A stretch of 64,000 bases of DNA, taken from the NCBI RefSeq assembly GCF_033473495.1, contig NC_088935.1:1302001-1366000 (forward strand), written 5' to 3'. The DNA is from Cercospora beticola (lineage: Eukaryota > Ascomycota > Dothideomycetes > Mycosphaerellales > Mycosphaerellaceae). The translations under genes were made by a program, and so were the position numbers. A model generated the notes under the pieces. That model saw nothing but the letters and a program-made list of their open reading frames with translations. It had not been told where the DNA came from and ran no database searches. Of this stretch, positions 964 to 33,352 are shown one piece after another (the stretch's first letter is position 1; every line of letters begins with the position of its first letter).

Positions 964-3051
964 GGTTCCGCCCTGTCAGATCTCGCGGAGATCTCAGTCC
1001 CCTGCGTGATCGCGCAATTGCAGCAGGGTGTTGCGATTAGCCGACAGTGAAGGTGAATGTCGTCAATGTCGTTCGTCCTTCTCAGAAGATTTGCGCGCCG
1101 GTGGAAGAAATCCTTATTATTGTTACAGGATGGAGATGCTCTCGGATGTCGGCACCTGGCGCTCGACCCTGGTTCGAAGTGAGGAGTTGACGACGTGTGC
1201 TGGATTTCTGTACGGTCGCAGGAGATGAAACGAAGTGTATTGCCAAACAAGTTTTCGATGACGGGTGGCTGTTTGCTTTTGGGTGACTAGGCGGCCAAGT
1301 CCAGGAAGAGAAGTCTTATCGAGAAGTGCCTCGGGTGTAGTGGTATTAGTAGATCGACAGCACAGAATTGAAGATAGAATTGGAATGCTCGAGGCAAGGG
1401 ATGCGAGTGGGTTTTCTTTAGATTGAAAAAAAGCCTTGTCGGCGAACCGGCAAGAGGCATTGTTAACGCCGCGCATGTCGCCACCAAAAATCCGAGTTTC
1501 GATGGTATCAGATGGACTTCATGCTCGTCTGTGGCGGCTCTAGTGCTGGAAGAAGCACCCAAGCCGTGGGTCGCCAGGTATGGGCCGTAGCCGGGCGCGT
1601 GCATAACCAAGCTCATCGTTGAGCTTAGCCAGGGAAAGGTTTGCTTACCGAGGAATCGGCCCTTGCAAACAGCGACCCCCGACCATGTTGAATCTATCGT
1701 CAGATCATGAACTTCGAGCCGACAATGGTCAATGCACTCTGTCCGCGTGGCAGCGGGGTCCAGAAATATACTCCTGCTTATGAAGAATGCGAACAGCTCG
1801 AGAATCGCAGCTGTCTCATGCTCGTGTCAGTTTTGAATGTGGTGTACATGTTTGCATAAATGCACAGCGGTCGGCATCGGCCCATTCCTGCGGTTGTTCG
1901 GCTCACAAGGTTTCTCCCACAATGACGTGTTATCGAGCTGCGCAACATCATCGCTTGGCAACGTGAAGGAGCCCACGTGCCGTGGTGTGCTTGAAGTAAG
2001 ACACTGATGAGCATAGACCAATCGACCACACCTAGACTTTGCGTGCGGTGTAGGTACGGACTGGCCCTATCAACCGAGGATCACCGAACTTTCGACGCTC
2101 AACATACTGTAGTCCTAGTCCAGGTTGCAAGGAAACTGACGGAGTTTCAAGCAGCTCAGTAGTACTGCACGCCGACACCGAAGGACACCCGGACATCAGC
2201 AATGGACAGTCCAGCAGCGTCTCATGCTGGCAAGATGCCCTGGGTCGCACGCGGTATTAGCCTTGACGATTCGTGATCAGTGTCAGCCACGAGTCCCGGA
2301 GATATCAAAGTCCAGGCATGGATGAGATGAATCGTATTGTGTGGCACGTTGGCGGTACGCAAAGCAAGAACGACCTCGCTACACGCACATTGGTTAGGGC
2401 CTCAGTTCTCAGAATGGTCTCGGAGCTCGTGATGGAGACAAGCCCTGTCCGCAAATGCTGCAACGCGGATCGCAGCTCCTCAATTAGTGCCATGGAGGGT
2501 TTCATCTTTGAGCATTGTCAGCGATTGGAACATTGAGCTGCTGCTCTGTTACGGGAGAGGTGGAAGAGGCAATACCGCGAGCACTGCCACTTCGAAGATA
2601 AGGACTTACTGTATACGGCAGACAGAAAATCTGGAGACACTACAAGGCTCCCCAGCTCTGCGAGGCTGGCGGAAGTGGTTACTGATCTCACATCAGAGCC
2701 AAGCGAGTAGTTCGATCAAGGTGAGAATGTGTTCGCCGAGCCTGGTGAGGTGCTGGGTGGATCATTGCGTATGTTCTGCATCGCGGATAGCGAGTCAGGG
2801 CTTGGGTGAAGCAAGGAAAACTAAGATCCTCTGGATGTCATCGTCTAGGTGCCAAGAGCGCAAGAAGCCACTGGGGCGTGGTGAAGTGAATGTATCGTGC
2901 AAGAACTTGGAGTTGGAGCGAAGGCACGGAGTTGATGAGTCATCATGACAACCCGATCTTCCGGGTTGACTCTTTCAACTTCAACGTTCCTGCCACCACG
3001 TTGACGCGACTTCACCAGAACAGAACCTACCGTCGATCCTCGTCGAACAAG
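964..3051. other. Intergenic stretch without recognised gene
   Basis: About 2.1 kb between the MFS start and the acetyltransferase. Only short overlapping open frames without family resemblance are present. It presumably contains the promoters of both flanking genes. I see no repeat, tRNA or transposon remnant. Confidence 0.6.
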
Positions 3052-3570: not shown

Positions 3571-4473
3571 TCACAACTTTTGCCAGCGCTCTGGCTTCCA
3601 CCGTGTCAAGGCGCCGATGGCTAGTACAGGGGCGGCAAAAACCGATATCTTGAGCACGAATTTGGAAAGCGCTATAACATACATGGCTCGGTGCGCCATG
3701 ATGAACTGCGTGGCGTCGTTCATGCGTGGAAAATTCTCCTGCGGTACATCGTGACCTAGGAATCCGCAAAGTGGCACCCAACCATCCGAGACCTGGTAGT
3801 GGTCGAGCGTTCGCTCAGGAGGCGAAAGTCGGCGAACGAGCTCGTAATGCTCAATGAAGCGCTTGTGGGCAGGACCATTGACTGACCAGTCCGTCATCGT
3901 ACCGAAGAAATTAGGCATCAAGGCGTTCGCGTGGCGCCAGAAAGGTTCGCTCAGAGCTTTGTCCCATGGAGCCAACCATTCCCATGATCTCCAGCTGAGG
4001 ACTCTCCCTGCGGTGGTCTGCATGCTGTGCAACCACTTTTCTGCATCGCGCGTAGTGATTACGATCTTTGCTTCCGGATACGCCTGGATGAGCTCCTCCG
4101 CGAACGCGATGCATGGAACATCGCAGCAAGCATCGAAGTTGCCGAGAATTTTGTCAAACTCCGCTCGCCCAAAGGGCTTGCCTTTGCCTTGATACTTGGC
4201 CTCAAGGCCCTCCGCCCAGACATTGAGATTCGACTTTGGTGCCTGGACGGCTTTTGCCATGTGGTATGGGGTGTATCCCAGCGTTTCGAGGGCCGAGTAC
4301 ATGGACATGGTTCCTGTGCGGGAAGCGCCTAGGACGAGCACTCTCATCGGTTTGGTCCTCGTACCTGGGTGATTGTCGATCATGCGGCCTGTTTCCGGAT
4401 GAGGAGTCAGGTTGTACGTCTCCTTCAACTCGTGGGGCTTGATCAAATCCGACAATTGTTTTGTGCGTGCCAT
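3571..4473 (-). CDS. Sulfotransferase-like P-loop protein
   Basis: An intronless 300-residue protein of the fungal sulfotransferase-fold family, often mislabelled NAD-dependent epimerase in fungal genomes. After about 42 residues a P-loop-like nucleotide/PAPS-binding segment follows strand MRVLVLG: GASRTGTMSMYSAL. Further on, PEAKIVITTRDAEKWLHSM matches the second strand and helix that contact the 3'-phosphate of PAPS in sulfotransferases. The C-terminal 35 residues are hydrophobic (FVLKISVFAAPVLAIGAL), suggesting a membrane tail. Members of this group often sit near secondary-metabolism genes, but no cluster is evident here. Its 3' end abuts the GNAT gene tail to tail. True sulfotransferase activity is not established from sequence. 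Confidence 0.85.
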   Translation of the reverse strand: MARTKQLSDLIKPHELKETYNLTPHPETGRMIDNHPGTRTKPMRVLVLGASRTGTMSMYSALETLGYTPYHMAKAVQAPKSNLNVWAEGLEAKYQGKGKPFGRAEFDKILGNFDACCDVPCIAFAEELIQAYPEAKIVITTRDAEKWLHSMQTTAGRVLSWRSWEWLAPWDKALSEPFWRHANALMPNFFGTMTDWSVNGPAHKRFIEHYELVRRLSPPERTLDHYQVSDGWVPLCGFLGHDVPQENFPRMNDATQFIMAHRAMYVIALSKFVLKISVFAAPVLAIGALTRWKPERWQKL

Positions 4474-30104: not shown

Positions 30105-32207
30105 TCATGAATCGGGAGAATCTTCATCTTCATGTTCCTCGCTGTCACTGTCTCCAGCATGGATTGTTGCACCACCTTCATCGGCGCTCTCCTCACCTTC
30201 ATCCTCTTCCCCATTCTCATCGAATCCCTCAAAATCTTCACCGTCCTCGTCTTCATCCTCATCATCCTCCTGCTCCGCCTGCATCTCACCCAGCTTCCTC
30301 TTGTGCGTGATGCCCAGCTTCTCGTCCCTGCTCCCTTCCTTCTTGCTCTCCAAAGCCTCCTCACCTTCTGCTTTGGGCGGCGCACTGAACCAAGGGATCT
30401 TGCCTCTCAAGAAGTCGTTCAACACCATCTTTGCCACACCATCCATATCAGCCTCACCTCCTTTCAATAATCGCCCGCCTTTTCGCGCGAGCATTTCCAG
30501 GAACTCAATCGATTCAGTCACTCGCTCCTTCTCGGATTTCTCTTCAAAGGGCCGGGAGTCTTCGGTCCAGTTCTTGATCTGGTATGTTCGTTCGAGATGA
30601 TGTCGTTTGCAGCGGCCGAGGACGGCAGGAATATATTGTGCTGGATTTTCAACGTTTTCCACGCGAACAACGCCTCGGAGGAGGATGTCTTCGGGTGTGT
30701 CGGTAATGCTGGGTGGCACGATTCCGGGACAATCGATAAGGTAGATACGCTTCATAAGAGTGATGTATTGCCAGACCTTGGTCTCTCCGGGGATAGGCGC
30801 TGTGGTGCAGACCTTCTTCTTGCGAAGTGTGTTGATGATGGAGGATTTCCCTGTGTTGGGATAGCCGATGAAACCCACGGATATTTGTTTGCGGGAGCTG
30901 TGGAGCGAAGAAAATTGCCGGAGTAGAGAAATCAAGGAGCCTTTGCCAAATGAGTTTGTCATGCTGGCGTGGAAAGCAAGAGTTGGGTATTCGCGGGAAA
31001 GGATCTTTACCCATTTGGCCTAGCAATGCTATGTCAGTACTTTTGATCCGACTTTTCGATCGCCCAGAATTCCGCAGATGAGGTGAGTTAATGTACGTCC
31101 CGTTACTAAGCTGTCCATCACGGGAATGAAGCATGAAGCTATCCGGATCGCTACTCAAACAAGACACAAATGCTCCGAGGTGATCATGCCAAAACGGCAG
31201 AGGATCGGGTGGAGCTGGGGTTCAATCTGCCATCGCTGTAACAGGTCTGCTTCATCGAACTGCCTGGAGTGGCGGAAGCAAACCTTGACTTGAGCAATGG
31301 CGGACACGTGTAGAATGGGATACGAAGAAATGATCAGACTTACCGCGACTGTGGTTGGCACCAGATCGCACTTGTTGAGAAGGAACACCAAGTGCTTGTG
31401 AGGTGCCTCTTCTCTCATGTACTTTTCCACACTGCGACACCGAGTGCCTTCTGGATCTCGACAGTCGATCACATGGATGATCACGTCTGAGCTGTCGATG
31501 ACCTTGTACAGTTCGTTCCATATTCGTTTGCTCTGGCCTTTTGAAAAGACGGGTTCTTTTGCTGTTGTGAGCTCGCCGTTCTTGTAGTCTTCGCCACCAG
31601 TAAACCCGGTATCGGCTTCCACATCTCCTGCGCCTGACAACAAGCGGGCCTCTTCTAACCGTTGTTCGTAGGTATCAAAGTCTTTACCAGATGCATTTGC
31701 GAGATCTTCGATATTCGAGACCGCCAGTCGAGGTCGTTTTCGCTGCGCCTTGGGCCCAAATGTGTCGCCGAACTTTTCGCTCTCTATCCGAATCTTGGCC
31801 TTGTGTTGTATGAGACCGTCTTTTCGTTCTTTGTCCTTGTTGTCGTTGATCAAGCTCATTGGAAGCTTGTTCTGTTTCAGCAAGTAGCTGTATGGGTCTT
31901 TACTCTGTGCCTCTACCGCCCCACGGAATTTGTCAAGCGCATCTTGAGAGATCACTCGAGTGTTGGTAAACCATTTCCTGTTCGGCTCGACTCGCGCGCT
32001 GGGCTTTTCTTTGCTCTGATACGAAGCAGCCTGCACAATGTCTCCTTTGGCGTTGCGCACAGCCTTGCCCTCCTTGTACATGTTCAGCGTCTTGACCCGC
32101 TTCGCGCTACGGTAGAAGTTCTCGCCCTTCGTCTTGACGTTGGCCATGCCATCGCCGGTCTTGCCCTGCCGCTCCTTGCGGGCGGCTTCCTTCTTTCCCG
32201 AACCCAT
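30105..32207 (-). CDS. NOG2: Nucleolar GTP-binding protein 2 (NOG2/NUG2)
   Basis: A predicted 592-residue circularly permuted GTPase needed for late maturation and export of the 60S ribosomal subunit. Exons are 31344-32207 and 30105-31019, joined in phase 0 across a 324-nt intron that hosts an snR191-like snoRNA. The N-terminal NGP1 domain starts [16 protein letters not shown] and includes [19 protein letters not shown] motifs appear in permuted order: G4 NKCDLVP near residue 280, just before the intron, then G1 [10 protein letters not shown]2 PGETK and G3 DCPGI in exon 2. The C-terminus is highly acidic ([19 protein letters not shown]), as in other NOG2 proteins. It is divergent from the mS26 gene 209 bp away, suggesting a shared promoter. 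Confidence 0.97.
31089..31305 (-). ncRNA. snR191: H/ACA snoRNA in NOG2 intron, snR191 homologue (guide for two helix 69 pseudouridines)
   Basis: Reading the minus strand, a 5' hairpin has an 8-bp lower stem (31294-31301 with 31229-31236) and an 11-bp upper stem (31275-31285 with 31243-31253). Its pocket strands are TCAAGTCA and GTTACA. AGUCA and GUUAC lie directly against the upper stem and pair with UGACU and GUAAC of the rRNA, leaving U-A unpaired: the yeast Psi2258 site in helix 69. A box H-like AGATTG (31223-31228) starts 14 nt after the pocket base. The 3' hairpin presents GAGU (31153-31156) and UAGU (31105-31108), pairing with ACUC and ACUA around the Psi2260 site. A 10-bp lower stem with one bulge follows, and ACA sits at 31092-31094, exactly 14 nt from the pocket. 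An extra hairpin (31162-31218) separates the two. Yeast snR191 is also in the NOG2 intron. Ends are approximate; box H deviates at its last base. Confidence 0.9.
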
Positions 32208-32416: not shown

Positions 32417-33352
32417 ATGCCGCCCCGGGCCTCATTATCGACGCTATCAGCGTGGAAGTGCCCGCAATGTACCGCTCGACCATTCTCAACCACCACTCGA
32501 CAGCTGGCCGTCGGCCCTGAACATCCTCGCTTCGTGGAGATTCCTGAGCCACCACAGCAAACCGTGCCATACAACCCACCAGTGAAAGGAGTCCTGCCAG
32601 TCCCTCGCAATGTCTTCGCCGGAACACCGAAAGATCTTTCATCAGACGAGCAGATCGCTCTTGCTACGAAGCCGCCAGCGCGAGAAAAGAAAGTTGCTCC
32701 TCGCAGCAGAGAAGAATGGAAAGTCAAGATGAGCGAGCTCCGACGACAAAATCTGCGCGAAGGTCTGAAGAGCTTGAAGGCGCGCCAGCAAAGCGAGGAG
32801 CAGCGCGTCGCTGCCCGATCGCGAGCCAAGCAAGCAGAACGAATGAAACAATTGAACATGCCCGAACGCGAAGACGAACGCTTGACAGCACCAAGCAACA
32901 ACCTCGATCTGGACGCTCTTTTCAACAAACCAATCCCTGACCCTACCCGCGAAGAACGACTCGAGAGGAAGCGTCTAAATCTCGAAGCAGATCTCCTTCG
33001 GAGACAGGAAGAACGCATGGATGCCCTACATTCGCTCTACATGAATGCGCGTGACTTCATCGTCACTCCGCAACAGCTGGACAAGGCAGTCGATGCGGCA
33101 TTTGGTACACCCGAGAAGCCCGTCGGATTTGGTGCCAGCATGGGCGCGTGGGATAGTGTAGGAACAGGGAAGTCCATTTGGGCAGAAGGGAGGCCAGCTC
33201 GTGTACAGGATATGCTCAGGAGGGCGAAGAATGCCCCATCGGATAGAGCAATGGACGATGCGGCTGGATATAGCGGTATCAACAAGGACAGAATCAGGAG
33301 AATTGCTGAGTCGCTCACGGGGGGCAAGATGGACAAGGAAGCGAGACAGTAA
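32417..33352 (+). CDS. PET123: Mitochondrial small-subunit ribosomal protein mS26 (PET123 family)
   Basis: A single-exon 311-residue protein starting at the ATG at 32417. The N-terminus (MPPRASLSTLSAWKCPQCTARPFSTTTR) has a mitochondrial targeting character with an RPFSTTTRQ processing-like site. The centre is a long, highly charged helical region. KMSELRRQNLREGLKSLKARQ is the recognisable PET123/mS26 block, followed by AARSRAKQAERMKQLNMPERE. RLNLEADLLRRQEERMDALHSLYMNARDFIVT continues the conserved helix and leads into a C-terminal part (TPQQLDKAVDAAF). It is a fungal-specific subunit of the mitochondrial ribosome small subunit. It shares a divergent promoter with NOG2. Assignment is by pattern recognition; the reading frame and length fit the family. 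Confidence 0.85.
   Translation: MPPRASLSTLSAWKCPQCTARPFSTTTRQLAVGPEHPRFVEIPEPPQQTVPYNPPVKGVLPVPRNVFAGTPKDLSSDEQIALATKPPAREKKVAPRSREEWKVKMSELRRQNLREGLKSLKARQQSEEQRVAARSRAKQAERMKQLNMPEREDERLTAPSNNLDLDALFNKPIPDPTREERLERKRLNLEADLLRRQEERMDALHSLYMNARDFIVTPQQLDKAVDAAFGTPEKPVGFGASMGAWDSVGTGKSIWAEGRPARVQDMLRRAKNAPSDRAMDDAAGYSGINKDRIRRIAESLTGGKMDKEARQ

Follow-up and report, generated by a model that had tools for sequence, protein, structure and literature searches.

A predicted snR191-type H/ACA snoRNA in the NOG2 intron of Cercospora beticola

A 64,000-nt stretch of Cercospora beticola DNA (hereafter the window) carries on its minus strand, at 31089-31302, a 214-nt region inside the intron of NOG2 which, judging from its sequence, almost certainly encodes an H/ACA snoRNA orthologous to yeast snR191 and predicted to guide both of the sites served by the yeast RNA. 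The region aligned with the full Rfam model RF01263 at 37.5 bits, its ends being those given by the model. A snoRNA gene is thus now placed in the Cercospora beticola genome. As far as our searches show, it is a new instance in the species and not a new kind of RNA; the biology of snR191 and NOG2 has previously been published for other fungi, and the Cercospora case is an ordinary though sound example of it. Among the results of literature searches pairing the words snoRNA and Cercospora, no article had either word in its title or abstract.

Results

The NOG2 gene (30105-32207, minus strand) has a single intron, and its removal gives a protein of 592 aa. According to the translation, exon 1 (31344-32207, minus strand, 864 nt) runs from the start codon to ...DLVPTTVA and exon 2 (30105-31019, minus strand) from AKWVK... 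to the stop codon. The intron between DLVPTTVA and AKWVK (31020-31343, minus strand) is 324 nt long and in phase 0, starts with GTAAGT and ends with CTAG, and its sequence contains a branch-site-like TACTGAC at 31033-31039 on the same strand. The spliced protein was 100% identical to the Cercospora beticola nucleolar GTP-binding protein 2 record and shared its exon junction, a record which is possibly itself a gene prediction and which represents a 90% identity cluster. NGP1NT and MMR_HSR1 domains were identified in the protein, and the solved structures that it matched best were Nog2 chains (8pv1, 3jct). Both the host gene and the orientation are those of yeast, with the putative snoRNA on the sense strand of the NOG2 intron, as the preliminary description of this DNA had stated.

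The covariance-model comparison proposed there aligned the snR191 model from end to end (model positions 1-273 of 273) with 31089-31302, with E values from 4.8e-7 to 5.6e-5 depending on the search space. The scan of the window at Rfam gathering scores was empty, the 37.5 bits of this match lying under the gathering score of 46 for the family, which is a curation threshold of Rfam and no biological feature. At E <= 1 against 4227 Rfam families, snR191 was the sole match listed in the window (5.6e-5), one overlapping, lower-scoring match of the same clan having been set aside. In the assembly of 36.07 Mb and 10 contigs, the match at 31089-31302 was also the only snR191 match listed at E <= 10 (E 7.2e-6; 28 of the 770 first-look candidates were scored); the model gave matches at this threshold in 7 of 14 control genomes, none of them above the cut-off. 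A chance resemblance to the family, in an intron whose length has some other cause, would draw on the score below the gathering score and on the freedom of intron sequence to drift; it is opposed by the genome-wide E value of 7.2e-6 and by the position of the sole listed match, which falls in the expected host gene and on the sense strand.

Both helix 69 (H69) guide pockets that had been claimed were found. The 5' pocket is formed by AGUCA (31286-31290) and GUUAC (31238-31242) and the 3' pocket by GAGU (31153-31156) and UAGU (31105-31108), all on the minus strand. These arms complement 5'-GUAAC-U-A-UGACU and 5'-ACUA-U-G-ACUC, which together form the expected H69 segment GUAACUAUGACUC of the rRNA, with U2258 and U2260 (yeast numbering) left free. 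On this expected target AGUCA pairs with UGACU and GUUAC with GUAAC, so that U2258 is the predicted target of the 5' pocket, and GAGU pairs with ACUC and UAGU with ACUA, with U2260 as the predicted target of the 3' pocket, which has just 4+4 base pairs. Sites 2258 and 2260 of yeast 25S rRNA are guided by snR191 (PMC8307265). A pattern made from this H69 sequence was looked for in the assembly, with up to two mismatches allowed, and gave nothing, which may mean that the Cercospora beticola assembly lacks the rDNA; viral contigs did not contain the pattern either.

An expression describing the two-pocket layout, which was loose and devised after the candidate had been seen, matched once in the window and in none of 150 random 64-kb first-order Markov sequences (9.6 Mb). 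Taken singly, the halves have expectations per 64 kb of 0.52 matches (5' half) and 3.1 matches (3' half), and each matches the window once; thus it is the combination which carries the weight. The 5' pocket joined to AGATTG gave one match in the window, and none of 100 shuffles contained it.

The H/ACA rule places about 14-16 nt between pocket and box. Measured from the first base of the 3' arm to the first base of the box, the distance was 14 nt in each half, both to the box H-like AGATTG and to the ACA box, in agreement with the earlier account. The ACA box (31092-31094, minus strand) stands 3 nt ahead of the modelled 3' end. The variant box H that had been noted, AGAUUG at 31228-31223 on the minus strand, has AGAUUA as its Rfam counterpart in the consensus, and it recurs in a second fungal copy described below. 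The textbook box H is ANANNA, from which AGAUUG departs at the last base in both copies; this rule is loose in practice, so the hexamer was not counted as excluding H/ACA membership. Since it is common to 2 of the 2 copies examined, AGAUUG is likely, on comparison of the two sequences, to be a stable variant and not a sign of decay.

The order hairpin, box H, hairpin, ACA was found in the Cercospora copy, with a 3' hairpin that is thermodynamically weak and a 3' end that is derived from the model. The 5' hairpin (31229-31302, minus strand) had a minimum free energy (MFE) of -31.9 kcal/mol and a z score of -5.40, and none of 200 shuffles was as stable. In its MFE fold the pocket is open, AGUCA and GUUAC lying unpaired within an internal loop. 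The 3' hairpin (approximate ends 31097-31165, minus strand, folded with its flanks) gave a z score of -0.88, with 41 of 200 shuffles as stable; its MFE fold closes the GAGU arm, and the fold with the open pocket is 2.5 kcal/mol less stable. Of the two guide hairpins described beforehand, the 5' hairpin is borne out by folding and the 3' hairpin folds no better than shuffles. A further hairpin (31172-31215, minus strand), which follows box H and precedes the 3' hairpin, had a z score of -3.06, with 3 of 200 shuffles as stable. It had been singled out as extra and worthy of note, a view which we abandon because the structure line of the Rfam snR191 model already places helices in this interval and because yeast snR191 is the longer RNA; a hairpin in the middle adds nothing new to the family.

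As compared to the Rfam consensus, the 20 pairs of the 5' hairpin comprised 8 that were the same, 1 changed on one side, 10 changed on both sides and still pairing, and 1 broken, and among the 24 pairs of the 3' hairpin 4 were the same, 4 had changed on one side and 8 had changed on both sides but still paired, while 4 were broken and another 4 gapped; these counts cover the 5' and 3' hairpins and come from alignments fitted to the model, which biases them towards the structure. Decay of the snR191, leaving a working 5' half, a 3' hairpin without its fold and guidance of the 2258 equivalent only, would agree with the z score of -0.88, with the closing of the pocket in the MFE fold and with the 4 broken and 4 gapped pairs of the 3' hairpin. 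We regard such decay as very improbable, because Cercospora and the second fungus have both arms of the 3' pocket, the ACA box and a 14-nt spacing in common, the open-pocket 3' fold lies only 2.5 kcal/mol above the MFE, and the 8 doubly changed pairs among the 24 have kept their pairing. An RNA predicted to guide both sites remains the preferred reading.

The second copy came from a scan of prokaryote genomes, in which 20 pattern matches included a sole NOG2 locus, NYXK01000235.1, 66080-74217 (L002; coordinates below are those of this segment). The contig is filed under a Deltaproteobacteria MAG (isolate CPC1), yet it is fungal: the NOG2 gene on it contains introns, and the encoded protein and a record from Cadophora malorum disagree at 1 of 626 residues.

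The NOG2 gene of this Cadophora-like contig has introns of 87 nt and 329 nt. The snoRNA lies in the second, 329-nt intron, whose insertion point (DLVPTGVA / AAWVR) is the same as in Cercospora, and a 243-nt snR191 match at 3979-4221 reached 43.0 bits, again under the gathering score of 46. The pocket arms, the box H AGAUUG, the ACA box and both 14-nt spacings are identical to those of Cercospora. Between the two fungi, 6 of the 20 pairs of the 5' hairpin are unchanged, 2 carry a change on one side, 7 carry changes on both sides that preserve pairing, 1 is broken in one of the species and 4 are gapped; 6 of the 7 doubly changed pairs form one run of adjacent pairs, and the comparison is one of two species, counted on the 5' hairpin in alignments fitted to the model. 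The intron of a related fungus, which the preliminary description had named as a check, thus keeps both pockets and shows compensatory changes in the 5' hairpin. Given that a second fungus has the same RNA in an intron inserted at the identical position, and given these compensatory changes, a chance resemblance in the Cercospora intron is scarcely credible, and we return to the reading of an snR191 orthologue.

Folded alone, the 5' hairpin of the Cadophora-like copy had a z score of 0.37, with 124 of 200 shuffles as stable, and the MFE structure of the whole RNA does not hold the 5' hairpin in H/ACA form; the 3' hairpin had a z score of -2.97 with an open pocket. The weak halves are opposite in the two copies, the 3' hairpin in Cercospora and the 5' hairpin in the Cadophora-like contig, so folding energies by themselves would have been too little to establish the case for snR191. 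Single-sequence folding often gives weak halves for real H/ACA RNAs.

A protein-based NOG2 scan of viral contigs gave no further relatives. A DNA pattern for the stretch from GUUAC to box H picked out one other locus (L003), which lies inside a 1045-aa reading frame on the opposite strand and had no Rfam match at E <= 1, and it was rejected as a chance match.

The two snR191 copies from filamentous ascomycetes, at 31089-31302 of the window (37.5 bits) and at 3979-4221 of the Cadophora-like segment (43.0 bits), both score under 46 bits, so annotation at the gathering score would miss them. They would be useful seed sequences for the Rfam snR191 family.

A gene for an mS26-like protein lies head-to-head with NOG2 in both fungi, at 32417-33352 (plus strand) in the window and at 1873-2769 (minus strand) in the Cadophora-like segment. 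The two mS26-like proteins are 39% identical; that of the window matches an mS26 chain, a mitochondrial ribosomal protein (E 1.3e-29), and neither had a Pfam match at E <= 0.001. A gene of the cytosolic ribosome and one of the mitochondrial ribosome are kept as a divergent pair in 2 of the 2 fungi examined.

Discussion

By analogy with yeast, the NOG2 pre-mRNA of Cercospora would be spliced and the excised intron trimmed to a snoRNA of about 214 nt, which would then be bound by the H/ACA core proteins Cbf5, Nop10, Nhp2 and Gar1. The two pockets would place U2258 and U2260 (yeast numbering) of helix 69 of the 25S rRNA for pseudouridylation by Cbf5. Yeast without the NOG2 intron was reported to have a growth defect that is cured by intron-bearing NOG2, and the levels of NOG2 mRNA and protein were equal with or without the intron (PMC10667330). 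A growth defect at unchanged mRNA and protein levels points to a role of the intron RNA rather than of Nog2 abundance. The same paper describes the yeast NOG2 intron as a stable intron that accumulates under stress (PMC10667330), so that the growth defect may not be due entirely to the snoRNA.

One possible reason why a guide for helix 69 should stay in this host gene is that the pairing is kept by selection because Nog2 and snR191 act on the same piece of the ribosome; a single transcript would then supply Nog2 and the RNA that modifies H69 in step. Helix 69 undergoes remodelling in the pre-60S particle, with Nog2 beside it. Nog2, the tail of Rpf2 and H69-H71 were described as close together (PMC7385084), and coordinated expression of NOG2 and its intronic snoRNA has been proposed (PMC8476143); the specific link between Nog2 and snR191 through H69 is one that we infer ourselves. 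We consider selection of this kind doubtful. The unchanged NOG2 mRNA and protein levels in yeast without the intron (PMC10667330) argue against it. So does the location of the snoRNA outside NOG2 in some Candida and Kazachstania species.

Eight intron-poor fungi, which we take to include yeasts, filamentous ascomycetes and basidiomycetes, have been studied for this arrangement. All eight were reported to have a NOG2 intron with an H/ACA snoRNA at a conserved position, the prediction in one of the eight being partly of low confidence, and the intron position is given as retained in 72% of fungi species (PMC8476143). An snR191 cDNA derived from an intron was described from Trichophyton rubrum, with the host gene unnamed in the portion of that report dealing with it (PMC3890542). 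On the other hand, snR191 lies outside NOG2 in Candida parapsilosis and C. orthopsilosis (PMC5033589), it has been lost from Naumovozyma dairenensis, and Kazachstania africana is a further exception in which the snoRNA is outside NOG2 (PMC4202332). The preliminary description had proposed that NOG2 and its guide shared one transcript across ascomycete evolution; the pairing is indeed published and extends beyond the ascomycetes (PMC8476143), but it is not unbroken, as the Candida and Naumovozyma exceptions show. The relevant part of another study names snR191 orthologues for the Saccharomycotina, gives the NOG2/snR191 arrangement as one of Saccharomycetaceae and Candida, and names the Pezizomycotina for snR44 (PMC4937481). 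The copies of Cercospora and the Cadophora-like contig, the T. rubrum cDNA and the fungi of PMC8476143 extend beyond that range. The main text of a Neurospora crassa survey mentions none of snR191, NOG2 and 2258 (PMC2780460).

Like the Cercospora copy, yeast snR191 (RF01263) lies in the NOG2 intron, has pockets for 25S positions 2258 and 2260 and, according to the model, forms helices after box H and before the 3' hairpin. The Cercospora copy differs from it in length, being 214 nt as compared to 274 nt in yeast (PMC12389098). Its box H AGAUUG differs from AGAUUA, the comparison here being with the consensus of the Rfam model and not with the yeast sequence. Compared by description, Cyphellophora europaea and Sporothrix schenckii share with Cercospora an H/ACA snoRNA in the NOG2 intron at the conserved position (PMC8476143), and Trichophyton rubrum shares an intronic snR191 (PMC3890542). 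The closest counterpart in detail is the Cadophora malorum-like NYXK01000235.1, which has the insertion point, pockets, spacing and AGAUUG of Cercospora and differs from it in length (243 against 214 nt), in score (43.0 against 37.5 bits) and in combining a weak 5' hairpin with a stable 3' hairpin.
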